Below are positions 3,676-32,559 of a stretch of 37,165 nucleotides of DNA, piece by piece (positions within the stretch are counted from its first letter, which is position 1; each line of letters opens with the position of its first letter). This DNA comes from Pyrinomonadaceae bacterium. Lineage in GTDB: Bacteria; Acidobacteriota; Blastocatellia; Pyrinomonadales; Pyrinomonadaceae. Position numbers and translations under genes: made by a program. Location of the stretch: positions 1-37,165 of the forward strand of contig JAMQPI010000310.1 in NCBI GenBank assembly GCA_023717565.1, in the 5' to 3' direction. The notes beneath the pieces are model-generated. The model made no database searches. It was not told the DNA's origin and saw only the letters and a list, made by a program, of their open reading frames with translations.

Positions 3676-3699
3676 GATTCCTCCTTGGAATATTCCTGA

Positions 3700-6624
3700 T
3701 TAGGGGGCAACCGAAGTACGGTACAAATTCAGTGAATAGTTAATCGCGCTCCGGTCGGGATTAAGGAATCGCAGGGTGAATTGCGCACTGCCGCCCGGCG
3801 GCAATGATAAGCCTTCACCCGGAAGAGGTATCGTCAGGTAAGAACTGCCAACCGGCGCCAGAGCCTCCGTTAAGCCCGATTTATTAACCAGGGTCACGTT
3901 AGGCGTCAGGCCGGAGAACACGAGGTATAGGGAAGCCGGCAGCGTCACAGCTGACGTGTTGGTAATCCTCAAGTCCTGAACGAAGAAGCCAGTCACGCGA
4001 TCCAACCTGAGCCCAGATCGGGAGATGGTCACTTGTGACGTGAGATCGGCTGGCGCCAGCGGGCTCGCCGGATCTTCCACCACAAAAGTCGCAAAGTCAG
4101 AAAGGCTTCCGCTCCTCGCGGCGACGGAGCCAAAGCCCTGGCCTACGATCTGGACCAACCCGTCACCGTTTACTGTCACCACTGATTCGTTGCTGGATGT
4201 GTAAGTGGTGCCAGTGAATGGCGAGGTGAGATCGAGCACCGAGCCGTCGGCGTAGGTTCCGTTAAGGTACAACTGCTGATCTGGCGCGTCTGGTGCAACC
4301 AGGAAGTTGTGTTGCTGCAGCGCGATGCTGTCGGGAGTTCCAGTCGGCCTGATGCCAACAACCACAGGAGCACCCGCGAAGTAATTTCCAACCGTATCGG
4401 TGAAATCCGGTGTGATCGTTAGAGGTCCGGTGATCGCCGGCGGAACAACAAACGTTGCCGAGAAGCTCAGGCCAGCAGTGAAGGTAGCAGAAACATGCGT
4501 CAGGTTTTCCAGCGTTGCGCCTACCGTGTTGGCAGGCGTGAGCGGCGGCGCTAACTCCACAACCATATTGACTGTTTCTCCGGGAGCGAAGATGGTTCCA
4601 GCAGCCGGGCTCGTTAGAGTTACCCGGGGATCTACAGCGGCGGGAACATCATCTCCACCCTTGCCGATTGCTTCCTTATTGAAATACGTTTGCGAAGCCA
4701 GAGGATTGGCCGCTCCTCTCATTGGGCCCCCTGGTCCGCACTGGTTCGCATAGTCCTGCTGGTCAAGTGCCCCGCCTCGCCCAGGTACCGTCCTGGGAGT
4801 ACCGGCTCCATTCGACAGCACCCCTGGCAACGTCGACGCGAGACCGCTGTCTGGCCCGTCGAGGATCTGAAACGATCTAGTCGCTACGTTGGCGCCATCT
4901 GTGATGCCGCGTTGCACGCCGGGAATTCCGGGGATGTGGAAGTGAATGTACTCGGTGAAGTTGACACCGCCGAGGCCACCTTGCTGGCTGGACAGCGGCA
5001 CTACCGCATCATTCATTTCACGGAAGCGAAATCCATCTACCGTCGCCTGAGGAAAGTGGAACGCGAAGTTGGTGCATATCGCCGCACCGCTGACTGGATC
5101 AAATACATAGTTAGTGCAGTACCTTTCAGTCAGCGCGCTCTCGAACGACTTGATGCCGAAGAAAGTCGCACCGCCCCAATACGGCGCAGGACTCGCAGGA
5201 GTGCCGGCTGGACCACCCGTTCCGGTGATTACCTGCGACTTCAGATTTGTGCCACCAGACATCACCTGCAACGCGGGACTGTTTTCCGACAGATCGCAGA
5301 CCGCGCCGTTCACAATGCTGCCACCAGTGATGCCGTTGACCGTCGCCACGGCCCTCGCAGGGTTTACTCGGTGCAGTCCGACGAGCAGATTAGCGAAGTT
5401 ACTTCCGAAATGTGGCGTATCGAGCGTAATCAGCCGGTGTACGTCGCCCTTGTCTAGGTTGTCGGGCCGCATATAGTTAGCGCTGCCCGCAAAGAGGCGC
5501 GTCAACAACCCTCCCATGCTGTGACCTATTACGTCGGCTTGGGTGCCGGCGTAACCCTTGCGCCGGAAATTGGTGAGAGCTTGATTGATGAACCCCTGCA
5601 CCCGCGTTTGATTTGTCGAGAAACTTGAGCCATTGGTTGGCCGATAGTCTCCAGCATATGTTGTATGAGTCTGATCGTTGCGCACGAAGTCGCTGTTCCA
5701 GCCACTACCATCGCTCCAGACTCCGTGAATCAACATCACTGGCGGGCGAACGATCTTTGTCTGCGCGCGAAACCTGCTGGTATTCCCGTTGCCAATATTA
5801 GGAGTGAAGGTGAACTCCACCGTGATGGTCCGGCTGTTCGATGAATCGCCGTAGAAGCTCGGCGGCGTGTAGTAGGAGAAGCCGTAGTTCAAGCCGGAGA
5901 CGGGTTGCGTCGTGGTCAACGGCGTCTGAACTGTGCCCTGATCCAGAGAAGAAGTGGAGACGATCTCGAAACAGCCGGTCCCGGTCAGACCCGAAACCGT
6001 TCGCAGCAGCAGAGCATTCACTCCATCACTGGCAACACCCTGGATCGGCAGGCCACACATCGCCTGGAGTGCCGGATTGGTTGTTAACGCTGAAGCACCG
6101 GCATCGCGGCAGGCCTTAATGGGATCGTTGGCGTCCAGAAACTTCTTATCGATGCCGGCGCCAGACTTGTTGACGTCCCAGGCGCCGAGGGGAAAAACGC
6201 TCACGACGAAGCCAGGTGTCAGAGGTGTGATTCTGAGCAGCGTCTGGCCCACGCTAATACCGAAAATCGTGAAGCGGTTACTCACTGTTTGCCCTTCCGG
6301 GATGGTGACAATCGGCAGAAACCCTTGTCTCGTGTCTCCCGCGGCAACAAAAGCGGGATTGTCCGAGCTCAGCCGAAACACGGCGCCACCCATAGGCGCC
6401 GGCGCACCAATCACGACGGACAGGTTCAGAGGCTGACCCACGGGAACAGAAATGGAGTCCAATAAGCCGCCCTGATTCGGACATCCGGGTACGGCGTTGG
6501 GGGTTACCGAGTTGATGGTTCCGGGACTTTCCGGAAGGAATGGGCGAGGCTGATTCTGCGCGAAGACTGTCAAGCAGGTGCAGAACCCAACCAGGATCAG
6601 AGCCGAGGGCTTGAGGAATGACAT
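3700..6624 (-). CDS. Large secreted alpha/beta-hydrolase (lipase/esterase-like) with bacterial Ig-like C-terminal domains
   Basis: A 974-aa exported protein (signal peptide 1-22, ending VFAQ). Residues 50-290 are beta-rich with no clear family. An alpha/beta-hydrolase core begins at PPVMLIHGVW (oxyanion HG at 300-301) and has the nucleophile elbow GHSMGG at 367-372 (Ser369), followed by LITLDTPHFGS, typical of triacylglycerol lipase/PGAP1-like folds. Asp539 (REMNDAVVP) and His561 or His563 (EYIHFHIPG) are candidates for the other triad members. Residues about 667-760 look like an Ig-type domain (TLTSPAAGTIFAPGETV), 780-855 like a BIG2 domain (SSNESVVTVNGDGLVQIV), and the last 100 like another beta-sandwich. 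AAGGAGG sits seven nt before the ATG. Its partner downstream is a PEP-CTERM protein. The substrate is unknown. Confidence 0.85.
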   Translation of the reverse strand: MSFLKPSALILVGFCTCLTVFAQNQPRPFLPESPGTINSVTPNAVPGCPNQGGLLDSISVPVGQPLNLSVVIGAPAPMGGAVFRLSSDNPAFVAAGDTRQGFLPIVTIPEGQTVSNRFTIFGISVGQTLLRITPLTPGFVVSVFPLGAWDVNKSGAGIDKKFLDANDPIKACRDAGASALTTNPALQAMCGLPIQGVASDGVNALLLRTVSGLTGTGCFEIVSTSSLDQGTVQTPLTTTQPVSGLNYGFSYYTPPSFYGDSSNSRTITVEFTFTPNIGNGNTSRFRAQTKIVRPPVMLIHGVWSDGSGWNSDFVRNDQTHTTYAGDYRPTNGSSFSTNQTRVQGFINQALTNFRRKGYAGTQADVIGHSMGGLLTRLFAGSANYMRPDNLDKGDVHRLITLDTPHFGSNFANLLVGLHRVNPARAVATVNGITGGSIVNGAVCDLSENSPALQVMSGGTNLKSQVITGTGGPAGTPASPAPYWGGATFFGIKSFESALTERYCTNYVFDPVSGAAICTNFAFHFPQATVDGFRFREMNDAVVPLSSQQGGLGGVNFTEYIHFHIPGIPGVQRGITDGANVATRSFQILDGPDSGLASTLPGVLSNGAGTPRTVPGRGGALDQQDYANQCGPGGPMRGAANPLASQTYFNKEAIGKGGDDVPAAVDPRVTLTSPAAGTIFAPGETVNMVVELAPPLTPANTVGATLENLTHVSATFTAGLSFSATFVVPPAITGPLTITPDFTDTVGNYFAGAPVVVGIRPTGTPDSIALQQHNFLVAPDAPDQQLYLNGTYADGSVLDLTSPFTGTTYTSSNESVVTVNGDGLVQIVGQGFGSVAARSGSLSDFATFVVEDPASPLAPADLTSQVTISRSGLRLDRVTGFFVQDLRITNTSAVTLPASLYLVFSGLTPNVTLVNKSGLTEALAPVGSSYLTIPLPGEGLSLPPGGSAQFTLRFLNPDRSAINYSLNLYRTSVAP

Positions 6625-7267
6625 TTTTGGCCTCCTTGGTAATGGCTAGAGGCAGTTGCTGAATTGAGGTGGATAGCGGTCGGATCGCCATCACCTCAAA
6701 TGTCGCCACTGCGTGAGCGAACAGTTAGTGTGCGAAAGGCGCACACAGAACGGCAGACCTACGTTCCTGATGTCAGAGTCGTGTTAACCCGAGTTGAAGA
6801 GATTTGGAGTTTGTGCGCAACTGTCCTACTCCCACGAAGAACGTCGCTGTGTCCTGAATGCTGTCCCCTTGAAATCCCACGTAAAGAGAACCTATCTAAC
6901 AACCGGCCTTGGATGCAAAACGAGGTGAACTGAACGAGATGGCCGCCGATAACTCCACGAAATGTGGTTGGTTGTTCCCTGAGAGGGAGAGCCGCAAACG
7001 ACTGACCACGGCTTCGTACTGACTATCGGTTCGGGTACTCTACGCTCATTCTGCGTCAGTCGCAAGACTTCTCTGGATAGACGAGATTGACTCAATGACC
7101 GGCTGATTCCGACGATCCACGAATGCACCGATCCTGGCGGACTGAGCTTGAAATCGCAGATGGACTTCTGCTCGATTGACTGCGCACGCCCTTCTCGCGA
7201 CTGCACCGCAAACTCGCTAGAATCCCTTATTTCTCTGCTTTTTGAGACCTGCAAACTCAGGCCCCAA
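6625..7267. other. Intergenic stretch, no gene recognised
   Basis: About 640 bp between the lipase-like gene and the second PEP-CTERM gene. The track ORFs here (6664-6933 plus, 6892-7254 minus) lack a ribosome-binding site, a signal peptide or a recognisable motif and overlap each other in opposite frames. I see no tRNA, terminator-quality hairpin or repeat. It may hold the promoter of the lipase gene in its left part, but no confident -35/-10 pair was found. Confidence 0.5.
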
Positions 7268-7828
7268 TCAACTCTTGATACGCCGACGCCTCCGCCAAGC
7301 GGTACCCAGACCCGCGAGACCGCTACCCAGTAATAGCAGGCTCGTCGGCTCCGGTATCGGCCGAATGGTCAAAGTTAGACTGCCGAGTCGCACAGTACCA
7401 GGCCCGAGTTGCGAATAGGTCAACACGGCCACTCCGTCCGTCAACAACGAAAGATTGCCGGCAGATAAATGGAAGACAAACGGGGTCGGACCAGATGTTC
7501 CGAAGGCTCCCGTGCACGGCGCACCGGTAGCACACTGGGTAGTCTGGAGACTGTCGAGAAAGAGTGTTACCGGCGCAGTAGTACCGTTGATGGAATTTCC
7601 AAACGTACCGCTTAACGTCGCCGAGCCTATCTCAAATCCGGCCGGTAAGGTGAAACTGAAAGTCGCAACTGTCAGCTGCGGACGGGGAAAAACACCACCA
7701 ACAGTAAACGGACCGTTGAAGTCGGGAACCGTCAACGTGATTGCGTCAGCCCGCGCAGCCCTGGCTGAGCACAGGCACAGGACGACAAATAGAAACATTA
7801 TGAAACCAGACTTGTGTGAACGAAGCAT
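7268..7828 (-). CDS. PEP-CTERM sorting-domain protein
   Basis: A 186-aa secreted protein. The signal peptide spans residues 1-28 (hydrophobic FIMFLFVVLCLC, cleavage near ARA-D). The mature part is beta-rich and contains two Cys (CATGAPC, about 99-105). The C-terminal sorting signal is complete: IPEP at 158-161, the hydrophobic segment LLLLGSGLAGLG, then RRRRRIKS. AGAGG lies seven nt before the ATG. It shares little with the other PEP-CTERM protein in the window beyond signal and sorting regions. It is divergent from the PhoX-type gene across a 309-bp gap. The body matches no family I can name; a surface or biofilm-matrix role is only what is known of the class. Confidence 0.88.
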   Translation of the reverse strand: MLRSHKSGFIMFLFVVLCLCSARAARADAITLTVPDFNGPFTVGGVFPRPQLTVATFSFTLPAGFEIGSATLSGTFGNSINGTTAPVTLFLDSLQTTQCATGAPCTGAFGTSGPTPFVFHLSAGNLSLLTDGVAVLTYSQLGPGTVRLGSLTLTIRPIPEPTSLLLLGSGLAGLGTAWRRRRRIKS

Positions 7829-8137: not shown

Positions 8138-9511
8138 GTGGGAAAACTGAACAGACGATCATTCCTTGGGCGTACAGCGGTGGCGGGCGGCGCGGTTCTG
8201 GCTCTGGAAGGGCTGATGGCCAGCAGCAAAATGTTATCTCTGCCAGGCAGCCGCGTGTACGCAGGCGGGGCCGGCGACTACGGCCCACTCATTGCCCAGG
8301 CTTCAAACAACACCGGTGCGATGCGTCTCAAGCTGCCGGCAGGATTTCAGTACACGGTCATCGGCACGCAGGGCACTGTCATGGGAGATGGCCGCCCCAC
8401 GCCGGCCGCCCACGACGGCATGGCGGCTTTTGACGCCTACGGAATGATCCATCTCGTGCGGAATCACGAGCTGCAAGGAGGCGCCGCGTCGAGTGTTGCC
8501 TTCGGCTCGATTCCTTACGATCCCAAGGCCCTCGGGGGAACCACAACGGTCGTTGTCGATCCAGTAACCCGGCTGGTGGCTTACGACTTTGCTTCACTGA
8601 GCGGCACAGTACGAAACTGCGCCGGCGGTCCGACGCCATGGGGTTCCTGGCTAACTTGCGAGGAGACGTTGTTGGCCCCAGCGGCGAACAACTCCTACAC
8701 TAAACGTCATGGGTACATCTTCGAAGTCGCAGCTGCTAATTACGGTGAGACAACTCCGGTTGCACTGACTGCGATGGGACGTTTTGAACACGAAGCTGTA
8801 GCCGTAGACCCGGCAACCAGCATTATTTACGAAACCGAAGACGCGAACCCCAGTGGCTTCTATCGCTTTGTGCCGAGCCAGCCCGGTTCGATTGGGCAGC
8901 CGGCGAATCTTGCAGCAGGAGGTACGCTCCAAATGCTGGCCGTGGCCGGACAATCAGGCTACGACACCAGAACTGGGGAGACGCCGGGAGTGCCTCTGGA
9001 TGCAGTCTGGGTCAATATCGATTTCCCGGATCCGCAAACCGGACAGCCATCATGCGTCAATCAGGGTATCGCGAGGGGCGGTGCGAGGTTCGCGCGGTTG
9101 GAAGGCGCCTGGTATGGCAACGGCAGTATCTTCTTCGTCTCAACTAGCGGTGGCAACTCGGGGCTTGGTCAGGTTTGGGAGTACACGCCTACCGGGGCTG
9201 ACACCGGCATCTTGAAGCTCGTATATGAGTCAACCAGTTCGGCCGTACTGGAAGCACCCGACAATCTTCACTTCACTCCTCGCGGGGGCATCTTGCTTTG
9301 TGAGGATGGAGGCGGGTTAAATTTCTTACGAGGATTGACTCCAGCAGGTGTGGTCTTCGATTTCGTCGGCCACAACGCCTCCAATAGCGAAGTTGCCGGC
9401 GCAACTTTCAGTGGTGATGGCCAAACTCTCTTCTTCAATTACCAGGGCACCGGCGAAACGTTTGCTGTCTGGCCCCGGGATGGGCACTCGTGGGAAGAAG
9501 GTGCGCTGTAA
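8138..9511 (+). CDS. Tat-exported PhoX-type (DUF839) alkaline phosphatase-like protein
   Basis: A 457-aa exported protein of the PhoX/DUF839 family, whose characterised members are iron- and calcium-dependent phosphomonoesterases. The twin-arginine signal NRRSFLGR is at 6-13. Family landmarks are RNHE (108-111), the CAGGPTPWGSWLTCEET block (161-177) with the metal-ligand Cys/Glu region, FEHEA (216-220), YETEDANPSGFYRF (231-244) and LLCEDGGG (386-393), and a late GATFSGDGQTLFFNYQ. All are in family order, so the fold and metal site appear intact. The GTG start is chosen because AAGGAG lies seven nt upstream and the Tat signal follows at once. The gene stands alone, convergent with GH97. Enzymatic activity is inferred from the family; some acidobacterial DUF839 proteins have no tested function. 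I give no phoX symbol because the subfamily is uncertain. Confidence 0.88.
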   Translation: MGKLNRRSFLGRTAVAGGAVLALEGLMASSKMLSLPGSRVYAGGAGDYGPLIAQASNNTGAMRLKLPAGFQYTVIGTQGTVMGDGRPTPAAHDGMAAFDAYGMIHLVRNHELQGGAASSVAFGSIPYDPKALGGTTTVVVDPVTRLVAYDFASLSGTVRNCAGGPTPWGSWLTCEETLLAPAANNSYTKRHGYIFEVAAANYGETTPVALTAMGRFEHEAVAVDPATSIIYETEDANPSGFYRFVPSQPGSIGQPANLAAGGTLQMLAVAGQSGYDTRTGETPGVPLDAVWVNIDFPDPQTGQPSCVNQGIARGGARFARLEGAWYGNGSIFFVSTSGGNSGLGQVWEYTPTGADTGILKLVYESTSSAVLEAPDNLHFTPRGGILLCEDGGGLNFLRGLTPAGVVFDFVGHNASNSEVAGATFSGDGQTLFFNYQGTGETFAVWPRDGHSWEEGAL

Positions 9512-9673: not shown

Positions 9674-11662
9674 CTATGGGGCTGGATAAATCCTCGCGGC
9701 CCAACCACCGCCGGCCGACATCTTGATCTTCAGTTTGGTAGTTCTACCAACTCGGCTTCTTACCTTCAGGTAGTCACTGCCATGGCGGTCGGAGTTGACA
9801 CCGTCTTGATAAGCGTCCATTTGAAAGCTGCCCTCAGGAAGAAAAGAAAGGTCCGCTGACAATTCTCGCGGCGTCCAGTCGGTCATTGCTCCCAGATACC
9901 AATCGCGACCGCTACGGCGGGCCATCATCACATAGTCACCCATCCGGGCGTCCACCACCCTGGTTTCGTCCCAGACCGTAGGCACCGGGCCCAGGAACTC
10001 CATTACTTCGGGTTCCCGCAGATAGTTTGACGGATTGTCGGCCAGCATTTGCAGCGGACTCTCGTAGATCACGTACATCGCAAGTTGATGGCACCTTGTC
10101 CCCTGGCTCATCGGCTGCTCGAAGATCGGAACAAAGCTGGCCTTCTGGGCATTGACCATCGCGCCTGGCGTGTAATCCATCGGTCCAACAAACATTCGAC
10201 TGAACGGTAACGTTACATCATGCTCCGGCTCCGCGTATTTGCTCCACTTACTCTGTTCGAGACCTCTGACTCCTTCAGTGGAAATCAGGTTCGGCCAGGT
10301 GCGAGTCATGATCGCCGGCCTGATGGCTCCATGAAAATCGACGAGCATCTTACGCTTAGCCGCCTCGCGAGAAATCTTATGATAGAAGTTTATTACCGGC
10401 TGATCGTCCCGTTGCATGAAGTCGACTTTGATCCCTTTGACACCCCACTTTTGAAACTGGTCGAGTGCGGGTTCGAGTTGGTCGTCGAGCGTCTTCCAAA
10501 CCACCCACAAAATAATCCCAACTTTCTTCTGCCGGCCATACTCCGTCAGTTCCGCTATGTTCATCTCAGGAACGACGTCCAGGAGATTTCCCAGCTTGTA
10601 CCAGCCTTCGTCCAGAATGATGTACTGGATGCCGTATTTTGACGCGAAGTCGATGAAGTACTTGTAGGTCTCTGTGTTGACCCCGGATTTGAAAGGCACG
10701 TTGTAGATATTATTTGCGTTCCACCAGTCCCAGGCTACCTTCCCCGGCTTGATCCAGGAGGTGTCTTCAACCTGAGAAGGACTGGCCAGGAGGTAGACAA
10801 GTTGATTTGTCAACAGGTCTCCATCCTTCTCAGCAAGACCCAGGAGTCGCCAGGGAAACGTCCGTTTGCCACGGGTAACAGCTATGTAGTCGGCAGCCTG
10901 GGTTACCCGCAAGTCTCGGTCCCTGGTTAGTTGCTCCTTAAGAGGAAAGGGTGGAAACACACCGGCAAGACTGTTGCCGCTGTTGCCTCGGAACCATAGT
11001 CCGGGATAGTCCTCAACATCCGCGTCCGCGACAGCTATCTTGATACCATCGCCCGCATCCACAACTACCGGCACACTCCCGAGCGTTTGCGGCGTAATGC
11101 TCTTCAACGAAACGTAGCCAAACTCTCGTTCGTTGTGCGAAAAGAAGCTTTCTTCCTTGGGATAGTAAACAGAATAGTTTGAGGCAAAGTTAAGATTAAC
11201 TTCCTCAGCATAGATCTTTACTTCACTTCGCGGCAGCGACGTCTCGAACCGGTAGGCCACACCTTCGTTGTAAGCGCGAAACACCACGGTGTAATCGCCC
11301 TCCATCTCCAGCCGCAGCTCGGCAAAGTGTTCATGAATGCGAGCAGACTTCTGCGCCACCGGAGCGACCAGCTGTTGTTCGACCGACCGCCGGTGAGGAG
11401 TAATGACCTTCGGATCCTGGCCCAATACGGCCTTATCAACCGTCATGGTAGCCGTCGCATCCTGAACCAAGGTCTTCCCCTTGAATAGGACGCTATATGA
11501 GAGTCGACCGAGGGTCTTCACCTTGATTTGAACTCGACCATCAGGCGAGCTCAGGTCGAAGTCTGACTGACCCGAAATAGTGGTTGCCGCGCAGAACAGG
11601 GCAGCTAACACGACAGCTATGCGCGCACACTTCCACCTACCGTCTGAACATTTTCCGAGCAT
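9674..11662 (-). CDS. Glycoside hydrolase family 97 protein (predicted retaining alpha-galactosidase type)
   Basis: A 662-aa exported enzyme. The signal peptide (about 1-32) is followed by the GH97 N-terminal beta-sandwich (FDLSSPDGRVQIKVKTLG, 35-52). The TIM-barrel part starts at KPGKVAWDWW (305-314) and has IIILDEGWY near 348-355, GIKVDFMQRDD at 410-420 and STEGVRGLEQ at 461-470. Known family biology: inverting members (SusB) lack a catalytic Asp at the KVDF position, while retaining alpha-galactosidases use it as nucleophile. Asp414 here, with a Glu near 463, therefore points to the retaining group. The C-terminal all-beta domain is complete. GGAGG lies eight nt before the ATG. It is the last gene of a leftward same-strand block, 52 nt after the XylF-like gene. 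Calcium dependence is expected from the family. Confidence 0.92.
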   Translation of the reverse strand: MLGKCSDGRWKCARIAVVLAALFCAATTISGQSDFDLSSPDGRVQIKVKTLGRLSYSVLFKGKTLVQDATATMTVDKAVLGQDPKVITPHRRSVEQQLVAPVAQKSARIHEHFAELRLEMEGDYTVVFRAYNEGVAYRFETSLPRSEVKIYAEEVNLNFASNYSVYYPKEESFFSHNEREFGYVSLKSITPQTLGSVPVVVDAGDGIKIAVADADVEDYPGLWFRGNSGNSLAGVFPPFPLKEQLTRDRDLRVTQAADYIAVTRGKRTFPWRLLGLAEKDGDLLTNQLVYLLASPSQVEDTSWIKPGKVAWDWWNANNIYNVPFKSGVNTETYKYFIDFASKYGIQYIILDEGWYKLGNLLDVVPEMNIAELTEYGRQKKVGIILWVVWKTLDDQLEPALDQFQKWGVKGIKVDFMQRDDQPVINFYHKISREAAKRKMLVDFHGAIRPAIMTRTWPNLISTEGVRGLEQSKWSKYAEPEHDVTLPFSRMFVGPMDYTPGAMVNAQKASFVPIFEQPMSQGTRCHQLAMYVIYESPLQMLADNPSNYLREPEVMEFLGPVPTVWDETRVVDARMGDYVMMARRSGRDWYLGAMTDWTPRELSADLSFLPEGSFQMDAYQDGVNSDRHGSDYLKVRSRVGRTTKLKIKMSAGGGWAARIYPAP

Positions 11663-11714
11663 CGGTTAAGCCTCCGCTACGTTAGATTTGCTTCCGCCGT
11701 CGTATGTGAGGAGG

Positions 11715-12812
11715 TCATTGTTGCGCCTTCGTCTTTTCCGTCGATGGCCATTGTTCGCGTGGAACGTTGCGATAGATGTCGTCCATCTTGTGATAGCCAT
11801 CTTTGACAATCGTCTGAACGATGTTGTCCTTATTAACTACTATCGGCTCCAGCAGAATTGATGGCACATCGATCTTCCCATTATTAACCTTGGAGGTCGT
11901 CTCGAGCTTCTCGTGTCGCCCCAAAGCAACCGCGGCTTCGGCAGCCCGTCGGGCCAGTTGGGCTATTGGCTTATAGACAGTCATTGACTGGGTTCCGGCT
12001 ACAATCCGCTGTAATCCGCCCAGATCGGCATCCTGACCTGAAACCAGGACCTTGCCGGCAAGTTTCTGTCCTTCCAAGGCCTGCACTGAACCTCCCGCAG
12101 TCGCATCGTTCGACGCGACGATGGCTACCACATCATTGTTGGCTTGGGTCAGCGCATTCTCTGTTGCGCGCAAGGCTTCGCTGGCCAGCCAATCTTTGGC
12201 CCACTGGTCCGAGACAATCTTAATGCTCCCCTGGTCCACTGCCGGCTGCAGCACGTTCATCTGCCCTTTGCGAAACAGGAGCGCGTTATTATCTGTGGGG
12301 GCGCCACCGATTAACACGTAGTTGCCCTTCGGTGCCCGTTCTAGTAAATAGCGGGCTTGCAACTCACCAACCTTCTCGTTGTCAAATGACACGTAGAGTG
12401 CGGGCTCGCTATTTCGTATCAAGCGGTCATAAGCGATCACCGGCACATTCTGGCCTTTAGCAGCGTCCACGATTGATCCCATCACCTCACCGTTATGCGG
12501 GACTACAACCAGAACGTCTACTCCCTGCGTCAACAAGTTTTCCGCTTGTTGCATCTGCACGCGGTCATCGCCGTTAGCAGCCTGCACCACAACCTCCGCT
12601 CCCAATTCTTTGGCGTATTGCACAAAGAGATCGCGATCGCGTTGCCACCGCTCCTCTTTGAGAGTATCGAGCGAGAGCCCGATACGGATAGGACGTGGGC
12701 CGGCGGTAGCGCCAGTGTTCCCGGCTGGTTCTTTCGTGCAAGATAGTGTGGAAAGAACTATGACGGCGGTGATAGTCCCGGTCAGTAAACGCAAACCTAT
12801 TCCATTTGGCAT
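11715..12812 (-). CDS. xylF: D-xylose-type ABC transporter substrate-binding lipoprotein (XylF-like)
   Basis: A periplasmic sugar-binding protein of the Peripla_BP_4 fold, closest by eye to XylF. Matching segments are ERWQRDRDLF, VQAANGDDRVQMQQAENL, SFDNEKVGELQA, GNYVLIGGAPTDNNA, VVAIVASNDATAGG, VLVSGQDADLGG and QSMTVYKPI, all in XylF order. The ORF track starts at 12830; I prefer the ATG at 12812 because GAGG lies six nt upstream and the resulting leader (MPNGIGLRLLTG...) is a compact lipoprotein signal ending STLSC-TKE. The cysteine would be lipidated, anchoring it in the inner membrane as in other ABC binding proteins. No ATPase (XylG) or permease (XylH) gene lies nearby, which is odd. It sits between a CRTAC1 gene and GH97 in one tight block. 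Ligand specificity for xylose rather than another aldose is not proven. Confidence 0.88.
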   Translation of the reverse strand: MPNGIGLRLLTGTITAVIVLSTLSCTKEPAGNTGATAGPRPIRIGLSLDTLKEERWQRDRDLFVQYAKELGAEVVVQAANGDDRVQMQQAENLLTQGVDVLVVVPHNGEVMGSIVDAAKGQNVPVIAYDRLIRNSEPALYVSFDNEKVGELQARYLLERAPKGNYVLIGGAPTDNNALLFRKGQMNVLQPAVDQGSIKIVSDQWAKDWLASEALRATENALTQANNDVVAIVASNDATAGGSVQALEGQKLAGKVLVSGQDADLGGLQRIVAGTQSMTVYKPIAQLARRAAEAAVALGRHEKLETTSKVNNGKIDVPSILLEPIVVNKDNIVQTIVKDGYHKMDDIYRNVPREQWPSTEKTKAQQ

Positions 12813-12863
12813 CAAGAACCTCGATATCATGAGAAATTGTAGAACGGTTTTGAACCTAACGAT

Positions 12864-14558
12864 TCAGCCTCCCTCGACCACCTTGATGTATTTGTTGATC
12901 GGTGGGTTGGTAAGCTTATCAACACGCCCGCTGGGCCATTTGATTTCAACGCTGTCGATCTTCGTCGCTTTTCCTAGGCCCAGGATCTCGCGTGGATCGT
13001 GCGACGAAAGAAAGCTGCCACCACCGATCTTGAGACGGCGGTGCTTCACGCCTCCCGCCTCCCAACTGATAATTGCACCTACCGCACCCGGATTGCTCCG
13101 AGTAGAGACCAGCTGAAGTCCAAGCCAGTTGTTACGACTACCGCCCTCATTTCTAAGCAGTATCGGCGCTTCGCCGTTGTTGATGATCAGAACGTCGAGA
13201 TCGCCATCGTTGTCATAATCTCCTACCGAAAGACCACGTGCGGGAAAATCTTTACTAAAGGCAGCGCCGGAAATCGCGCTCACGTTTTTGTACTTGCCGT
13301 TGACGTTTTCGAACAGCAACAAAGGCTCTTTGTACTTCACTTTCAGGGACTGAACCTCGATCATGTCGTCGGGATGTCCGTTCGCCAGAATCAAGTCGGG
13401 ATCTCCATCGTTGTCATAATCAAAAAACTTCGAGCCCCAACCGCTGAGTAAGCGCGTAGCCGGCGCAATCTCGCCGGGGTTATCGAGGAAAGTCACATCC
13501 TTTTGGTTTTGATATAAGCTGAAGAGCTCCTGATCAATATTAGCCACGAACAAGTCCTGCCAGCCGTCCCCATCAAAGTCAGCCGCATCTACTCCCATAC
13601 CCGAACGCGGTGATCCCGAATCGCTGTATGCCACTCCCGACACGAGACCCACCTCTTCAAATTTGTTCTTACCTTTGTTCAGAAAAAGGAAGTTGGCAAC
13701 TGTATCGTTCGCTACGAATAAATCCATCAACCCGTCGTTGTTTACGTCGGTCGCGACCGCACCGAACGATTTCCCAAGCGCGCTGGCAATCCCCGAGTCT
13801 CTGCTTACGTCCGCGAACTTGCCGCCACCTTCGTTGTGAAACAAGTAGCTGGGGCGGGGCTTGAAAACCCGGGGCACGCAATAGTAGCGACGACCGATAC
13901 GGTTGTCGCCGCAGAAAATTGTCCCCTTGCCGCTATATTGCACGAAGCTGGAGACAAAAAGATCGAGCTTGCTATCGTTATCGTAATCAAACCAGGTTGC
14001 GCAGGTTGACCAGTTTGGAGCAGCCACTCCGGCTTCGTCGGTGACCTCTTTGAAGGTGCCGTTACCGCTATTGTGGAATAAGACATTGCGCCCATAGTTA
14101 GTGACATACAGGTCCTGCCAGCCATCGCCGTCGTAATCCGCTGCCGCCGCGCCCATTCCGAAATGACCCATCTGCCCACAAGCGACCCCGGCTTTGTCCG
14201 TGACGTCGGTGAAGGAGCCGTCGCCGTTATTACGATAGAGAGCATTTTTAATCGGCGTTTTTGGCGTATAGAAGTCTGACGGCCCGCTATTAACCAGGTA
14301 AATGTCCATCCAGCCATCATTGTCGAAGTCGAAGAAAAGGCCACCACCACCACAGGTCTCCGGCAAATGGCGAGATTCGGAGCGGCCGTTGTCGTGCACC
14401 CAGTTAATTTTCGATTGAGATGGTGGAACTTCGGCAAAAACAATGGGAGTGGAGGGCGATACCTGGTTTGTTTTCGTTAGCGGTGCGGACGAATAAAGCC
14501 CAGTCTCAGTTACGGTGACCAAGCCGATCACCAGGGCTACTACAACAAGATATCTCAT
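12864..14558 (-). CDS. CRTAC1 family protein (FG-GAP/VCBS repeats plus ASPIC/UnbV domain)
   Basis: A 564-aa exported protein (N-terminal hydrophobic leader 1-25). Residues about 45-470 are a seven-bladed-propeller-like array of FG-GAP repeats carrying calcium-type motifs such as [72 protein letters not shown] and [12 protein letters not shown]. The C-terminus (about 480-560) is an ASPIC/UnbV domain (NNWLGLQLV ... [19 protein letters not shown]). These proteins are extracellular or periplasmic; their molecular role in bacteria is not settled. The gene begins 10 nt after the heptaheme cytochrome stop and ends 33 to 51 nt before the XylF-like start, so co-transcription is likely. No good Shine-Dalgarno precedes the start, so it may be translationally coupled. 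Confidence 0.93.
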
Positions 14559-14568
14559 GCTTTGAGTT

Positions 14569-15708
14569 TCAATTAGGAAACTTTTCCCCAGGCTTTACTA
14601 TCCGAATGTAGTGGTCAGTGAACTTGAAGTGCGCCGGCTTCACTTCTATTTTAGCCATATGGCACGTCGTGCAGTCTTTGTTGGCAACCGGACAACTCGA
14701 TGAGCTACCCTGAGTTGCCGGCTTGCCTTTCAAAGCATGACACGCCAGACACTTCGGGTCGTAATGGGCTGCGTCCTCCTTGAGTGGCTCATGAGGATTA
14801 TGGCACGCTGTGCAACTTATCTTCCGATCATCTGAGTAACACTTACTCAGGAAAATACGATACGGTTGAAACCGAACGTTATTGATCTCCATACTTCTCA
14901 GCAGCGAGAACTCCTCAGCGCCCCGATGGCAGGACGCACAAAACTGCTGCGTCAACTCGTCACCGCTAAGCCGCCCGGGGTTGAAAATTAGTTTTGTATC
15001 GGACTCACCTTCCTTAGCGGCGGCCACATGTTGTCCCCCCGGACCATGACAAGCTTCACAGCGAACGCCGTGTGCGAGTTTATCCAGTCGAACCTGGCCT
15101 GCGGTGACGGCACCGGTAGAGTGACAGCTGAAGCAACTCGACACTTCGTTCGGTGTGAGCAAGCGTCCAACGGCTGCTGTCAGCGACTCCGGAACCGAAC
15201 GCGACGCGCCGATGGTAAAGTCGAGCCCCTTTGGTTCGTTGTAAAAACTGACCAGGCTCTCGTAGAACTTTCCCTCCTGCTGAAGCATGTATGTTTGACC
15301 CATTCTGCCTTGTCCGAAGGCATAAACTATGGGCAATGAGATTGTCTCCTTTCCGTCAGTCACCGAGTAAGAGCTTTGCTTACCGTTACGCTTGATCTCA
15401 TATGAGTAAGGACCAACACGCATCGACAATTGCGGATTCTGGACCAGCACCCGGGAATCAGCGACAGGTTCCATTGCCAGGGCCATGCCAGTTTGCGCAT
15501 ATGCGCCAAACATCTTCTTATGACATTCACCACAGGCCTGGTCGCCCACAAACTCCGCGCCTGCAGGTACTCTTCTGGGATTCCATCGTTGTGCTGAGCT
15601 CACCTGGCCACTCGCGAGCGATGGTCCCCAGGAAGCAACCCCCACGGCCAACAAACCCAATATGATGGCAATCAAGGTCAGAGAATACTGGCTGACAGGT
15701 CGACTCAT
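14569..15708 (-). CDS. Secreted heptaheme cytochrome c
   Basis: A 379-aa exported multiheme c-type cytochrome with a signal-anchor or signal peptide at about 9-27. Seven CxxCH haem sites are visible: CGECH (59-63), CFSCH (192-196), CEACH (217-221), CASCH (257-261), CTACH (299-303), CLACH (320-324) and CTTCH (346-350). The haems are clustered in the C-terminal half; the first is isolated by about 130 residues of beta-rich sequence containing no haem motif. Cytochromes with this arrangement resemble the cytochrome c-554/doubled-CxxCH families, but I cannot assign a defined enzyme. It should act in the periplasm in electron transfer and needs the c-type maturation system, not present here. It lies 64 nt after a TPR gene and 10 nt before the CRTAC1 gene. 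Confidence 0.9.
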
Positions 15709-15772
15709 TATTTAGTTCGTTCTCGTTCGCATAATTCGAGGTGTTCGGCAATCCAGTCCTTTGTGCGACGGT

Positions 15773-17074
15773 CTACTGCGGGTTTGCCTTCTCCTGTTTC
15801 GGGTCGGGCTCTGGCCCGGGCCTCTGACCATCGCGCTTCTGCTCAAACTTGTCCTGGAGTTGCTTGAAGATCTCGCGCTCGCGGGCAGCATCTTGTTTCC
15901 GGCCACCGCGCGCGTAAGCTCGAGCGAGAGCGAAGTGCATTTCGGGACTTGAAGGCGCGAGTTTTATCCCTTCCTCCAGCTCTTTTATGGATCTGTCAAT
16001 CTGGCCGAGCTCAAGAAGGATCCTCCCTAACACGTTTCGTGCCGCATATAATTTTGGCGCAAGTTGCACAGCCTTTTCAGCGAGAGGCAATGCTTCGTTG
16101 TATTGATCGCGCTTCAGGTACTCGAAAGCCATTTGGACCATCGCTGGAAAATGCGACGGTGAAATTTCCAGCTCTCGCTTGAACTCTTTAAGGGCAGTGT
16201 CCGCGTCCTGCGACAGCATGAAAACCCCGAATGCGTAATGAACATTTGGATCATTTGGGTACCGAGCCAACAGCACGTCAAAAGCCGCGCGTGCCTGATC
16301 CAAACGACGAGCGGCCATGTCAAATCCCGCCTGACCAGCTGTCATTACCTTTTCTCGCTTGTCCGGCGGAACCTCCTTAGGTAAATACGGCATTCTTAGC
16401 ATCGTCAACCCAAAGGCTTCGATGACTTTCGGACTTTCGTGGCCAACCCGCATGAACTCCTTAAGGATGTCGTAGGAAATTTCGAACTGGTCAAAGCGGA
16501 TATAGAGAAGCGCCGTATGGTAACGAACCACGGCCGCCAGTTCCGAATCGTCATTGACACCCAGAGATCGTCCTCGTTGCAACGAAACTACGGCCTGTTC
16601 GTACTCGGCGGTTTGAAACAAACATAAACCGAGCATTGCCCACGCCGGTCCTCTGGTGGGTTCAAGGGCCACGAGATTCTGAAAGGCGTTGCGGGCCTGA
16701 GTATAGTCGTCTTTTTGATAAAAGATTGCCCCCACATACCACCAGCCGTCCGGCCACTTTGGCCGAATGTTTAGAGCTTTGCCATAGAGTGAAATCGCCT
16801 CGTCGAATCGCTCCCCCAACCGGGCATCGTCGGCAAGCTTTACGAGTCGGTCAAACTCCGCACTGGCGTCGGTTGGTGCTACCCTTTGCGCAGTCGATGC
16901 TTTTGCTCTGGATTTGCGTGGTGTTTGAGCACTAGACAACGCGGGACACACCAGCAACAGTGCCACTAGTATTAACTTCCAGTTCAGAATCTTAGCAGTG
17001 GCCACAAGAAACCTATTGCGGCTGCGGTTGCTTTGTGATGCCATTGGAATTTGAGGGAGGCTTAGGAGAAACAT
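15773..17074 (-). CDS. Secreted tetratricopeptide repeat protein
   Basis: A TPR protein with an N-terminal hydrophobic segment (LNWKLILVALLLVCPALSSAQ) acting as signal peptide, followed by a Lys/Arg-rich linker and about eight to ten TPR units (e.g. GKALNIRPKWPDGWWYVGAI, NLVALEPTRGPAWAMLGLCL, KAVQLAPKLYAARNVLGRIL), and a charged tail of QKRDGQRPGPEPDP type. The start is uncertain. The ORF track uses 17122; I chose the ATG at 17074 because GGAG is nine nt upstream. An ATG at 17044 and a GTG at 17005 (8 nt after the upstream stop, giving the cleanest signal peptide) are alternatives. It overlaps the upstream TPR gene with any ATG start, which suggests translational coupling. It probably acts as a periplasmic scaffold for its neighbours, the cytochrome and CRTAC1 protein; this is inference. 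Confidence 0.85.
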   Translation of the reverse strand: MFLLSLPQIPMASQSNRSRNRFLVATAKILNWKLILVALLLVCPALSSAQTPRKSRAKASTAQRVAPTDASAEFDRLVKLADDARLGERFDEAISLYGKALNIRPKWPDGWWYVGAIFYQKDDYTQARNAFQNLVALEPTRGPAWAMLGLCLFQTAEYEQAVVSLQRGRSLGVNDDSELAAVVRYHTALLYIRFDQFEISYDILKEFMRVGHESPKVIEAFGLTMLRMPYLPKEVPPDKREKVMTAGQAGFDMAARRLDQARAAFDVLLARYPNDPNVHYAFGVFMLSQDADTALKEFKRELEISPSHFPAMVQMAFEYLKRDQYNEALPLAEKAVQLAPKLYAARNVLGRILLELGQIDRSIKELEEGIKLAPSSPEMHFALARAYARGGRKQDAAREREIFKQLQDKFEQKRDGQRPGPEPDPKQEKANPQ

Positions 17075-18245
17075 TCTGATCCGCTCCACCCGGTGAACCT
17101 GGTTGTTTAGCTTGCTGCTCATCGCTCAATTTTTGAATGATTGCTTTCTGACGATCGCCATCCTCTTTGCGATTCAACCGGTAATAAACTGACGCCAACA
17201 GGACTCGGGCCTCGATAAAGTCCTCGTACTCTTTCAAAACGCCCTCGAGCAGTGGCCGGGCCTCACCTGGCTTTCCGGCTACAGCATAGACCGCGGCCAA
17301 GTGGTAACGAGCATACTGATCCCGGGGGCGCAAGCCGATCGCTCGTAACAAATGGTTTTTGGCTTCATCAATCTGCTTGTCCTGCCGCAGCAGTATTCCA
17401 AGATAAAGATTGGCATCGAAGTCATTTGCGTTGCTTGCTAATTCACTCTTGAATGCGATTTTCGCCTTTTCCGTATCTCCGAGCCGCATCAACACCCGAC
17501 CATACCATGCCTGAATTGCCGGAAGCTTCGGATTCAACTCAATGGCGTGTTGGATCTCTTTAAGGGCACCTTCAGCATCATCTGCCAGTAAGAGGATCGA
17601 GGCCATCAAAAGTCGTGCTTCGGCTGAATCGTCACCGCGGAACACTCGATCAATGATTTGCTGTCCTCGGCTTAGCTGTCCGTCACCGATGAGTGCGCTA
17701 CCGAGCAAGTACGCGAGCTTACGGTCATTTGGGTCCGTCTCCGCCAGCGGCGAAAGAAGTTCTATGACTCTTTTATACTCGCCCAATCTAACCAGGCAAT
17801 CTGCCAACACTAGTCGCGCATTCGGCACCTGGGAGCTGGTTGGAGACGCGACTAAAAATCGATCCAATTCAGTTGCGGCTTCTGAAAACCAGGCTGCCTT
17901 GTAATATGCCAAAGCCAGATTGAAACGGATTGTTTGATTGGCGGCATCAATAACGAGAGCCTGCTTGTATTGCTCAATTGCCTTTTCATACCGCCCCAAG
18001 CCAGAGTATGCCGCACCCAAATTTGAACGGACATCGACGCGCCCAGGGTGCTTGGTCAATATGGCCAAATAAGCGCGAACTGCACCCTCCAAGTCTCCGC
18101 TCTGGTGCAACTGAGTAGCCTGCTCAAACTCTCGCTCCACATCCAGCGAGGGACGCTGTACTGGCACCTGGCTGGCAGAGACGGCCCCCCAGATGAAAAG
18201 CGGAATTATCACCAAGGCGCTTCGACATCGATTTTCGATTGCCAT
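17013..18245 (-). CDS. Secreted tetratricopeptide repeat protein
   Basis: A 410-aa protein with a signal peptide at 1-26 (ALVIIPLFIWGAVSAS-Q), about ten TPR units from residue 35 to 370 (e.g. YLAILTKHPGRVDVRSNLGAAYSGLGRYEKAIEQY, HAIELNPKLPAIQAWYGRVL), and a Pro/Gln-rich disordered tail. It is the first gene of the leftward block TPR-TPR-cytochrome-CRTAC1-XylF-GH97 and overlaps the next TPR gene. TPR arrays bind peptides or proteins, so a role in assembling a periplasmic complex is plausible but unproven. Start codon ATG at 18245 is directly before the signal peptide; no strong Shine-Dalgarno is seen. The promoter should lie in the 369-bp divergent gap shared with the VWFA gene. Confidence 0.88.
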   Translation of the reverse strand: MAIENRCRSALVIIPLFIWGAVSASQVPVQRPSLDVEREFEQATQLHQSGDLEGAVRAYLAILTKHPGRVDVRSNLGAAYSGLGRYEKAIEQYKQALVIDAANQTIRFNLALAYYKAAWFSEAATELDRFLVASPTSSQVPNARLVLADCLVRLGEYKRVIELLSPLAETDPNDRKLAYLLGSALIGDGQLSRGQQIIDRVFRGDDSAEARLLMASILLLADDAEGALKEIQHAIELNPKLPAIQAWYGRVLMRLGDTEKAKIAFKSELASNANDFDANLYLGILLRQDKQIDEAKNHLLRAIGLRPRDQYARYHLAAVYAVAGKPGEARPLLEGVLKEYEDFIEARVLLASVYYRLNRKEDGDRQKAIIQKLSDEQQAKQPGSPGGADQNVSPKPPSNSNGITKQPQPQ

Positions 18246-20892: not shown

Positions 20893-21900
20893 TCATTTCT
20901 TCCGAATCTGGAGTTCGAGTTCTTTGGCTTCTTTTGCGTATTCTCCCCGCGGCGCTTCCTCAAGGTAAGCTTGAAGAGATCTAGATGCCTCTGTAACATC
21001 TCCCCGGCTCAGGTAAACGCGCGCTAAGTGGTAGTGAGCGGCGACACATTCACCGGCTGCCATGACCAGGGATTTAGTCAACTCGCGCTCGGCCTCTTGA
21101 AAATTTCCCATTTCGAGTTCCGCGATGCCCACCCACAAATACGCTACTGCTCGAGTACTGTCGATCGCAATCGCCTGGTTCAACTGCGAAATCCCGCCCA
21201 AGTAATCTCTGCGTTCGATTTGAACCAGGCCCATATTGAACTTCGCGTTGTAATTTTTTGCGTCATTCTCAAGCACGGTTCGAAAATGCTTTTCCGCCTC
21301 GTCCAGGCGCTTGAGCTTAAGATATTGCGCACCCAGATCATTACGCGCCGCGAGATACTGTGGGTAAATGGAGATTGCTACTTCGAAGTGCGCGGCAGCT
21401 TGGGGAAAGTCTCCTTTGCTCACGAACTTCAGTCCCAGGGCGTATTCCTTTTTCGCCGCTGATGGAATCGATTGCTGCAGTTCCGCGGCAGAAACCACTC
21501 GGCTGCCCGACCGGGTGAACTGCAGGCCCTTCTTCTCCCTCAGTTCCAGGGTTAGATCCACCATCAACCCGCGACCTAGTTCAACCCTTCTAACAACCGG
21601 TTCATAGTCGGAGTCGACAACTTCAGCCTGCACATAGTAAATACCCTGACCCAGGTTTCTTATGTAGAACTCGCCACTCTTATTGGTGTAGAGAGTCGAC
21701 AGAACGCTCTGCGAGGTTTTTAGCGTGATTCTCGCGTATCGCTCAGCCGCAAATCCTGAGGGAAGAACCACTCGACCTTGGATCACGGCGTTATTGGAAT
21801 CCGCCGTCACGTGCTGAGGTTCAACTTCCTGTGCGTGCGAAGTTACGGCCAGCACACACCAACAGGCAAATCCCACACAGGCGCGAGCAGTTCTACTCAT
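20893..21900 (-). CDS. Secreted protein with carboxypeptidase-regulatory-like domain and TPR repeats
   Basis: 335 aa from the ATG at 21900. The ORF track starts at a TTG at 21951; the internal ATG directly precedes a signal peptide (ACVGFACWCVLAVTSHAQ), so it is preferred, though no Shine-Dalgarno is evident. A beta-sandwich carboxypeptidase-regulatory-like domain (VIQGRVVLPSGFAAERYARITL ... GEFYIRNLGQGIYYVQAEV) is followed by about five TPR units (FEVAISIYPQYLAARNDLGAQYLKLKRLDEAEKHF). The TonB receptor upstream begins with the same kind of domain. The gene follows that receptor's terminator by about 50 nt, so it may be separately transcribed. A periplasmic partner of the receptor is possible but only inferred. 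Confidence 0.87.
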   Translation of the reverse strand: MSRTARACVGFACWCVLAVTSHAQEVEPQHVTADSNNAVIQGRVVLPSGFAAERYARITLKTSQSVLSTLYTNKSGEFYIRNLGQGIYYVQAEVVDSDYEPVVRRVELGRGLMVDLTLELREKKGLQFTRSGSRVVSAAELQQSIPSAAKKEYALGLKFVSKGDFPQAAAHFEVAISIYPQYLAARNDLGAQYLKLKRLDEAEKHFRTVLENDAKNYNAKFNMGLVQIERRDYLGGISQLNQAIAIDSTRAVAYLWVGIAELEMGNFQEAERELTKSLVMAAGECVAAHYHLARVYLSRGDVTEASRSLQAYLEEAPRGEYAKEAKELELQIRKK

Positions 21901-21950
21901 AAAGCCACGTTGAGCAAGGGCGCTTGCTGAAGTTATTACGGGCCCAGTCA

Positions 21951-21993
21951 AAGTGAAACGGCGCGAGAAGCGGTTTTGTCGCCCCTCGCGCCG
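21951..21993 (-). terminator. Intrinsic terminator of the TonB-dependent receptor gene
   Basis: On the minus strand CGGCGCGAG (21993-21985), a 17-nt loop and CTCGCGCCG (21967-21959) form a perfect 9-bp GC-rich stem. It is followed by TTTCACTTTG, a T-rich tract, 28 nt beyond the receptor stop codon. The placement, GC-rich stem and T-tract fit rho-independent termination. Confidence 0.72.
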
Positions 21994-22021: not shown

Positions 22022-25000
22022 TTAGAATGTGAACTTCAAAGCAAATTCCACAATTCGACGACCGTGCTTGTTGACGACTTTGCCAAAGTTGTCAATGGTG
22101 TTCTGGGTATAGCGGAATCCCTGTGTCGGATCGCAGGGATTTGACGTTCCACCAGCTCCGTTATTAGTAGTGACTCTCGCGTTGCAGACAGTGTCCAGCG
22201 CGAGAAAGATATCGCTACCGGTTAAGTTAGTGGAAGTAACATTGATTTGCGTCGGATACGCCTGATTGAACACGTTGAAGAGGCCAGTCCGGAACTGAAG
22301 CTTCATATCTTCTTTGATCGTGAAGTTCTTGAAGAAAGAGATGTCGAAGTTGCTCCGACCGGGAGTTCGGATGTAGAAGGGCGGTTGCGACGGCCCGGTG
22401 TTCGGAAATGTTGGAATTTGCAGCTTGCTAAGGTCGTATGCCTTGTCACCCAGTGTGGTGCCGCCCACTGCTGGATTTCCAAGGTAGATCGGTGTAATGG
22501 CACCCAGGCTGGCACCAGCATTGGTGCCATTGAACGCATCGGAGCCATACCATCCAACCGCATTACCCGCTGAGGCTATGTCACCGGTGAATCTTAGACG
22601 AATTGGTATTCCGCTCTGGATCGTCGTAATACCCGACATCTGCCATCCATTAAGGAACCCTCTCCCAACGGTGTTATCGAAACTGCCGCGGGCAAATTTC
22701 GGCAGGCTATAGTTGTACGACAGGTTGAAAACGTGAGTGCGATCGAATGGAAGCACACCCCAGCTTCTGCCCCTGGTATCAATCGGGTCGGCCCATGCAG
22801 CTCCATCACTCTCGTTGGTAGCTACCGTTCCTAGTGCCTTGCCAAAGGTATACGTGGCAAAGTATTGAAGGTTCTTGCCTGAGTGGCTTAGGGTCGCCTG
22901 CAGCGAGTGATACGTGGAGGTACCGGTAAATTGATAGACACCCACTGAGTTGAATGCGTCGAATGGCCTACGCGACCGAAGCACGGAACCATCAAGACCG
23001 GCGCGGTTAACGGGAACGGATAGATCGACACCGTTTATCGTACCGCTAGAGAATGTTCCTAGAGGAACGATGTTTAGGTTCCGTTGCTGAGGTAAGTGCC
23101 TGCCCTGAGTGCTAACATAGGCAACTGCCAGGATGTTGTCCCAAGGCAATCTCTTTTCAACCGTCAAGCTCATGTTGGCAACTCTTGGAATCTCGTTTGA
23201 TTCAAGATCGCGGGAGTTCACGTTGACGTTTGAAATCGTGGAGAATGGATCAACGTTCGCCAAATCGCCAATCGTAAACCCATTACCACCATTTCCCCAG
23301 GGCATACCGACGGTCGCGCTATAGGTGTTAGGCAATTGGCCGCTGGAATAATAATCGTAGTTACCCTGCACGCGGTTGTAGAAGAGCCCCGCACCAGCAC
23401 GAACCACCAAATCACCCTTGCCGCCAACATCCCAGGCAAAGTTCAGTCGTGGCATCCACTGAACTGGTAAGTTATCAAGAACGCCCTTAGGAATTTCCCC
23501 CCGGGCCGCCAATTTATACCCGTTTGGATTGTTGCGGTTCCCGTTTATGAAGACCCCACCACCACGAACATATGACGCAGGATCAAATAGAACACCCAGG
23601 CCTTTTCGCTCGAAGTTTTGGGGCAGATAAGCCAAACGCAAGCCTGCCTCAATCGTGAGATCAGGACGCACCTTCCAGCTATCCTGACCGTAGAACTCGT
23701 AGTTGTAGTAACGGAAGTTATCAATCGGACGCTGAGTGGCCTGCGTGAACTGAATCGGTCTGCCAGTAAACAGGTCACCGTAGTTGTTGCCGGTAGCATT
23801 GCTTTGGCCCCATTGCGCAACTTCCATGTTGGTATCACTGTTCGACTGTTGCCGTTTGTTCGCCTGTTCGATGAAGGCACCGAATTTGAACGTATGCGAA
23901 TTATGAACCTTCACCAGGTTGTCCGTGATCGCAAAGCTATCGTTCCAGGCTAAAACCGGGTAACCGTACGCAGTATGAAAATCACCGTTGCCCCACGTCA
24001 GCACACTGAGGGGAACATAGGGATTTTGACTGTCGTTGGCAAAGAAACCGACTCTCGAAAGACCCAGCCCAGCGTAGGACACTTTCTCGGGCTCAGCGAA
24101 GTCGTAGTTCAGCTTCAGCTTGCTGGCGCTGAACAGGACCTCGTTGGTCATCGTAGAATCGATAACGTTAGTTAAGTTGACGACCACGGAACGACCCAGG
24201 TTCTTGCTGGTGAGCTTACCGGGGAGCTCGTAATTCGACGAATTCCACCAAAGCCCACGCGGAAAACCCTGCTCCTCGTATTCGCGCGCAAAACGAACAT
24301 ACAGCTTGGTCTTTTCGCTGATGGAGTAGTCAAAGCGCGAGGTGAACTGATTTCTATTGTTCGGCCTGAGTACGCTGTAGACGTAATTGTTTTGGCCGAA
24401 GGGAACAGATAGATTGGGCGCCGGGAGTAGATTCAATATCGCCCTGCCGAAGGGATCGGCGCAGGGCACCAGGTTGTTGTTGGGTGCCGCATCTGAAGAG
24501 TCGTTGTTGTTATTGCCGGGAACCCCGTTAGCTGTGCATCCCGTCGGAACATGAATCGAACCCGCGGGCGACTCACCAAAGTCGCCAGCCCGCTCTCTCA
24601 CCGTAGGCACCCTAAACTTATTCGATCCTTCGTCAACTTGCTGATAGTAGCGCTCGTAGCCGACGAAGAAAAACAACTTGTCGCGATTGCGATTGAACTT
24701 AGTCCAAGGCAGCAGCACCGGTCCGCCGACGTTCCCTCCCGGATAGTTGTACTTGCTCTTGGGGCGCTCGACACCGTTAATACTGTTCGAGCGATCATTG
24801 GCTTGAAATTTATGATTGCGCAGGTAGTCATATATCGAGCCGTGAAAACCACTGCTCCCACCCTTTGTGGTGGCACTTATCTGAACAGCGCTGATTCCGT
24901 GTTCAGCCGCGTAATTGCTGGTCTGAACTTTTACCTCCTGCACCATGTCAGGGTTGGCAGTTATCACGGTTCCATTGTTGGAGCCAATGTCGATCATGCG

Positions 25001-25645: not shown

Positions 25646-25947
25646 GTTTAAGTCACCTTCTCTACCTTCGTTTTGAGCGGAACGAACGCTTAGCAACCTG
25701 AGAGACATGGCGTCCTCCGACGGACTAATCAGTGGGTTGATTGACTGCCTACGAAAACGACTCGCGAGCGAACCTAGTAAGCACGTAACGCCGCTTAGAA
25801 AAAACCACGAGCAGGGAGCGGCTCGCCGTATATACCTAGAGGGAGCTTCTCAAAAGTAAGGAGCTCCTCTCTCTAAGCTTTCAAACGGAAACTAGAACTA
25901 ACCCGCGAATATGAACGAAGAAGTTTGTTGCACTACCTGACAAAAGC

Positions 25948-28711: not shown

Positions 28712-28802
28712 TCTACGGTTCAACTCTCTGCCGCTGTCGGCGACTATGGTCTTTGCGAAGTGCCCCCATGAGAGCCTGCAACCAGAGTTGCGTACTTATG
28801 GG

Positions 28803-28831: not shown

Positions 28832-28867
28832 AGTCGACAATAGTATTTGGCTTTAACTGGAACTACG

Positions 28868-30041: not shown

Positions 30042-30182
30042 CGATTTCCTCCTACCCAAACTGTTTGAATTGACGATTGGACTTAAGTTAGCGTGCGACT
30101 TGAACAAACTTATTCTAGCGATCTTCCTGAGAGTGCACAAGAGTTCCCTTTTTAACTAAGTGATTCCGAGGAATGGTTGAGA

Positions 30183-32390: not shown

Positions 32391-32559
32391 ATTCAATCCC
32401 AGTTCCTCAAGTATGGTTTCAGCTCTGCTTATCAGTTTCCTTCTGCATGAAGGGCGTACTCTGTTTTGCGGGCGCAAATTTGCGCGGGATGATACCGATA
32501 AATGTGACGGGCGGCAATGACCCTCCAGTTTGCATTGCGGCTTTTGTCTAATTTGAACC

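Follow-up and report, generated by a model that had tools for sequence, protein, structure and literature searches.

Exchangeable glycosidases beside a conserved receptor-TPR-cytochrome-CRTAC1 module in Acidobacteriota: a candidate polysaccharide-utilisation-type locus

Acidobacteriota are abundant glycan degraders that are difficult to culture, and their polysaccharide uptake is poorly known. In a Pyrinomonadaceae genome (G000; 6.9 Mb in 735 contigs), genes for a multihaem cytochrome and a CRTAC1-type protein lie in one row with genes for a sugar-binding protein and a glycosidase, raising the question of what could link redox proteins to sugar uptake. The row is part of contig C644, analysed over its whole length of 37,165 nt (the window). 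A first-pass annotation had proposed that its six genes form a redox or scaffold module coupled to sugar uptake, possibly one undescribed system.

The six genes are all encoded on the minus strand. In the direction of transcription they encode two exported TPR proteins, TPRa (17013–18245) and TPRb (15773–17122, start probably near 17044), an exported heptahaem cytochrome c (14569–15708), a CRTAC1-type exported protein with FG-GAP and UnbV_ASPIC domains (12864–14558), a XylF-like xylose-binding lipoprotein (11715–12830, start probably at 12812) and a GH97 glycosidase with a signal peptide (9674–11662; Glyco_hydro_97 domain match of 355.8 bits). Domain and profile matches, together with seven CXXCH motifs in the cytochrome, bore out the family assignments of the first-pass annotation. 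On inspection, export signals were found at the N-termini of all six proteins, with a lipobox-like LSTLSC in XylF. TPRa and TPRb overlap by at most 110 nt if TPRb begins at its first ATG and by approximately 30 nt from the likelier internal start. The gaps measure 64 nt (TPRb-cytochrome), 10 nt (cytochrome-CRTAC1) and 52 nt (XylF-GH97). The CRTAC1-XylF gap is 33 nt, or the 51 nt given originally if XylF begins at its second ATG (12812), which is directly preceded by GAGG. A sequence scan found no terminator-like site within the junctions of the block, and promoter and terminator matches were no commoner than in shuffled sequence. A single transcript for the six genes is therefore plausible. 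A −10-like TACAAT lacking a good −35 is present just upstream of XylF.

Comparison with other genomes showed that the conserved unit does not coincide with these six genes. It reaches upstream to position 25708 and takes in a divergent gene for an acidobacterial VWFA domain protein (TIGR03436; 18420–20840, plus strand) and two further minus-strand genes, encoding TPRc (CarboxypepD_reg-like domain plus TPR; 20893–21951) and an Oar-like TonB-dependent receptor with CarboxypepD_reg, Plug and OMP_b-brl_4 domains (22022–25708). The order Oar receptor, TPRc, VWFA, TPRa, TPRb, cytochrome, CRTAC1 was identical in another species of the genus (G013, L039) and in a member of another family (G330, L145), and partial contigs of G002, G003 and G113 were consistent with it. 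TPRa and TPRb are one fused protein in G106, and in a Terriglobia MAG (L059) the Oar, TPR, cytochrome and CRTAC1 genes are consecutive. The cytochrome gene overlaps its neighbours or lies 4–30 nt from them at four loci (L038, L039, L040 and L059). Fusions were also found between a related seven-haem cytochrome and TPR (L151) and between TPR and FG-GAP (L146).

The same partners were enriched around the cytochrome more broadly. CRTAC1 genes occurred at 27 of 35 cytochrome loci and at none of 20 random loci (Fisher 8e-9), and TPR genes at 21/35 against 0/20 (5e-6); the corresponding counts were 18/35 and 2/20 for Oar (0.003) and 14/35 and 1/20 for VWFA (0.005). The random control is small, comprising 20 stretches, some of them short, chosen beforehand from twelve of the same genomes. 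At the distant cytochrome loci L151–L153 and L155, no module gene was found within 400 nt of the cytochrome. Cytochrome orthologues from three further members of the genus were approximately 70% identical, and those from two further genera of the family 61–67%. A one-query scan of the genome contigs recovered six loci only. Across the phylum the subfamily was sparse, being present in at least 19 of 396 genomes (E ≤ 1e-40, four candidates scored per genome). Together these results show the module to be real, old and patchily distributed across families and classes of Acidobacteriota. The TPR-TPR-cytochrome-CRTAC1 stretch forms one end of a wider conserved cell-envelope block around an outer-membrane importer. 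No description of the module was found in searches of open-access papers on UnbV, CRTAC1 or FG-GAP proteins with multihaem cytochromes, TonB receptors or Acidobacteria.

The XylF and GH97 genes lie outside this core. Among the loci compared, the order CRTAC1-XylF-GH97 was confined to the window genome; elsewhere CRTAC1 is followed by GH3 (G013), a TPR-TonB_C gene (G003) or a gene on the opposite strand (G106, G330). The idea of six genes forming one undescribed system was therefore dropped. Uniqueness to this strain, the outcome that would have counted against a module, applies to XylF-GH97 and not to TPR-cytochrome-CRTAC1. The pair looks like a locus-specific addition at the end of the module.

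XylF exceeds the TIGR02634 cut-off (426.9 bits against 389.55) and aligns over the full length with 4ywh and 3m9w, yet it differs from the XylF of the XylFGH D-xylose ABC transporter in having no xylG or xylH gene in the window; the complete xylFGH set of the same genome is on contig C118. In a tree of 31 XylF sequences of the family, copies adjacent to XylG were placed apart from 11 orphan copies, which include that of the window; two changes were required, and the split on the orphan side had support of 86/95. The orphan copies that were checked neighbour genes for pectin, xylan and arabinan use (GH28, pectate lyase, GH88, GH10, GH43 and FGGY kinase). Since XylF here has no ABC partners, any coupling to sugar uptake would run via the TonB receptor, via xylGH encoded elsewhere, or both. 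The closest characterised relatives of the GH97 protein are the retaining alpha-galactosidases 3a24 and 5e1q, far ahead of SusB, and it keeps the motifs GIKVDFM and STEGVRGLEQ. It is of the retaining alpha-galactosidase type; because its score against the NCBIfam equivalog NF053844 (744.6) is below the cut-off of 800, an alpha-galactoside substrate is likely and not certain.

Such a tail could mean that the block is two units, a TPRa-TPRb-cytochrome-CRTAC1 operon and a separate XylF-GH97 pair that drifted alongside with no functional tie. The differing genes after CRTAC1 in other genomes and the −10-like sequence before XylF fit this explanation. Against it, G106, of another genus, has a sister XylF of 74% identity adjacent to and upstream of its Oar gene, at the opposite end of the same module, and the junctions in the window are on one strand, with gaps of 51–52 nt and no terminator-like site. 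We regard two unconnected units as unlikely.

Glycosidases recur beside the module while their family varies (GH97, GH3, GH31, GH20, GH2/42). Among non-module neighbours of 370–1000 aa, 17 of 86 proteins at cytochrome loci belonged to GH families counted at least twice, compared with 0 of 84 from random loci of the same genomes; GH families occurring once were left uncounted on both sides. The 86 proteins included six of GH20, five of GH3, two each of GH31, GH30 and GH16, and three FGGY kinases. Part of this signal comes from orthologous loci (the GH20 neighbours are orthologous, 66–73% alike where measured), which lowers the effective numbers; when GH20 and GH3 contributed one count apiece, the comparison was 8/86 against 0/84 (p = 0.007). 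GH20 adjoins the cytochrome at six loci, GH3 follows CRTAC1 in G013, GH31 lies within the module between TPRa and CRTAC1 in G101, and GH2, GH3 and GH42 occur in the module neighbourhood of G106. In the window, two locus hydrolases lie upstream of the receptor on the minus strand: a GH2 beta-galactosidase GalB above its NCBIfam cut-off (26267–28723) and a GH3 glycosidase whose nearest models, arabinopyranosidase and beta-glucosidase, score below cut-off (30183–32477). Taken with GH97, these enzymes point to a plant glycan containing galactose and pentose as the probable substrate. The part of the original proposal that tied a redox or scaffold module to sugar uptake thus stood in that TPR, cytochrome and CRTAC1 recur together and sugar enzymes are enriched around them, and fell in that XylF and GH97 are outside the core.

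At L003 (contig C605 of the window genome, 6229–13931), L045, L048, L050, L051 and L053, paralogous cytochromes, 44–49% identical, adjoin a conserved GH20 hexosaminidase; an Oar receptor and CRTAC1 genes in tandem are present at several of these loci. They represent a second form of the module, which has a hydrolase of its own. Elsewhere, a cytochrome 48% identical was found in a MAG labelled Acidimicrobiia (L058, VFZK01000345.1, 1003–2154), likely through a mis-binned contig or transfer. The cytochrome genes of L159 (G264) and L046 (G001, contig C80) are apparently split over two frames and appear to be decaying copies or assembly errors. Other genes of the window include one on the opposite strand, directly beyond GH97, for a PhoX-family protein bearing a Tat-like signal (8138–9511), one for a 974-aa alpha/beta-hydrolase-like protein flanked by PEP-CTERM proteins (3034–7828 overall; 3034–3675, weak, and 7268–7828), and one for an exported protein without family match (29328–30140) that is conserved near the module also in G106 (L042, 6590–7330).

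The cytochrome has 379 aa, with CXXCH motifs at residues 59, 192, 217, 257, 299, 320 and 346. In an alignment of 36 sequences, all seven haem motifs were kept, as were His 227, 306, 360 and 366 and Met 75 and 351. These conserved distal ligands, four His and two Met, are fewer than the seven haems, so that an open haem site is possible; the AlphaFold model (pLDDT 81) itself holds no haem. The model has a beta domain between the sites of haems 1 and 2, and the three-helix bundle found at the C-terminus of NrfA-family proteins is not seen in it. A profile search returned OcwA (E 5e-12), MtrA, 'cytochrome cf' and c554, with approximately 80–100 residues aligned. In the fold search OcwA was best (E 1.6e-4, TM 0.42, rmsd 12.7) and MccA second (prob 0.91, E 0.09); matches beyond these two were dismissed as noise. 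OcwA acts at the cell surface as a terminal reductase, with nitrite and hydroxylamine among its further substrates; it is related to c554 and NrfA, and shares with MccA an extra beta-sheet domain missing in other NrfA-family proteins (PMC6703420). The window cytochrome shares with this group a Cytochrome_C554-like haem pattern of 11 residues and, in its model, the beta domain, but differs in its seven haems, its small size, its bundle-less model and a low identity of 16%. It could be a small relative of the OcwA/c554/NrfA line.

This resemblance raises the alternative that the core serves respiration or extracellular electron transfer, the heptahaem cytochrome delivering electrons to an external acceptor such as Fe(III) or humics, or reducing a small N or S compound, with the glycosidases as bystanders in a glycosidase-rich genome. 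The rank of OcwA as best solved relative by both profile and fold, followed by MccA by fold and by MtrA and c554 by profile, the position of the beta domain and the possible open site all favour it. However, the OcwA match is short and of poor fit, the three-helix bundle is absent from the model, and bystander enzymes would poorly explain a constant core with changing glycosidase families. The barrel also counts against it, and with its Plug and CarboxypepD_reg domains, those of a TonB receptor, rules out a porin-cytochrome conduit with a Plug-less MtrB-type porin and the cytochrome inside. We regard this main alternative as unlikely. The Verrucomicrobia porin-multihaem cytochrome clusters (PMC5615132) and MtrAB also combine a barrel gene with a multihaem cytochrome gene in glycosidase-rich bacteria; the module differs from them in its receptor, in a heptahaem rather than octahaem or decahaem cytochrome, and in its CRTAC1, TPR and VWFA partners.

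Possible redox partners were found at some loci. In the window, a small exported monohaem CBB3-type cytochrome c (28847–29260, plus strand) may be an electron partner. No certain periplasmic sugar dehydrogenase was found there, only a GFO/IDH protein with a Tat signal (1819–3018). At L148 (9249–12808) the cytochrome gene is directly followed by one for a GMC oxidoreductase and one for a protein of 197 aa with no Pfam match, an arrangement that resembles a dehydrogenase-cytochrome set, and at L154 a PQQ dehydrogenase gene is located two genes from the cytochrome on the opposite strand. Both fit a periplasmic sugar oxidation and do not show it. A 3-keto-glycoside pathway with electrons passing from a glycoside 3-dehydrogenase to the cytochrome, prompted by the GMC gene, was kept as a sub-hypothesis only, since GMC is not among the recurrent neighbour families.

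We favour, at a probability of roughly one half, the explanation that the block makes up the distal portion of a polysaccharide-utilisation-type locus whose core forms one envelope assembly with variable hydrolases and a redox arm. The Oar-like receptor would bring oligosaccharides through the outer membrane, with the TPR, VWFA and CRTAC1 proteins as a binding or scaffold layer. Exported glycosidases, swapped per locus (here GH97 and the upstream GH2 and GH3), would trim the substrate. Lipoprotein XylF would bind freed xylose and pass it to an XylGH transporter encoded elsewhere, or be a spare binding protein. The cytochrome would be the electron carrier of a periplasmic redox reaction in the sugar pathway or next to it; annotation by similarity cannot by itself show any sugar role. 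We infer the physical assembly, the substrate, the electron donor or acceptor and the partner of XylF. Like SusCD-type loci of Bacteroidota, the locus combines a TonB-dependent receptor, exported glycosidases and binding or scaffold proteins, with a constant importer set and varying hydrolases. Unlike them, it has an Oar-like receptor instead of SusC, plus TPR, VWFA, CRTAC1 and heptahaem cytochrome genes; SusD had no Pfam match among the window genes scanned, and the SusC/SusD pair, the criterion for such loci, was absent from them. The unrecognised SusD, like the want of a certain sugar dehydrogenase in the window, weighs against the explanation we favour. More speculatively, the module may be an undescribed redox-coupled system of glycan acquisition, in which a receptor complex with an OcwA/MccA-like cytochrome and a CRTAC1 propeller would act on glycans, or on an electron shuttle, by oxidation or reduction as uptake proceeds, the hydrolases being swapped per substrate.

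The conserved receptor-TPR-cytochrome-CRTAC1 module beside exchangeable glycosidases would serve as a marker for glycan loci in Acidobacteriota. It also suggests testable roles for bacterial CRTAC1/UnbV proteins and, in sugar use, for a multihaem cytochrome.
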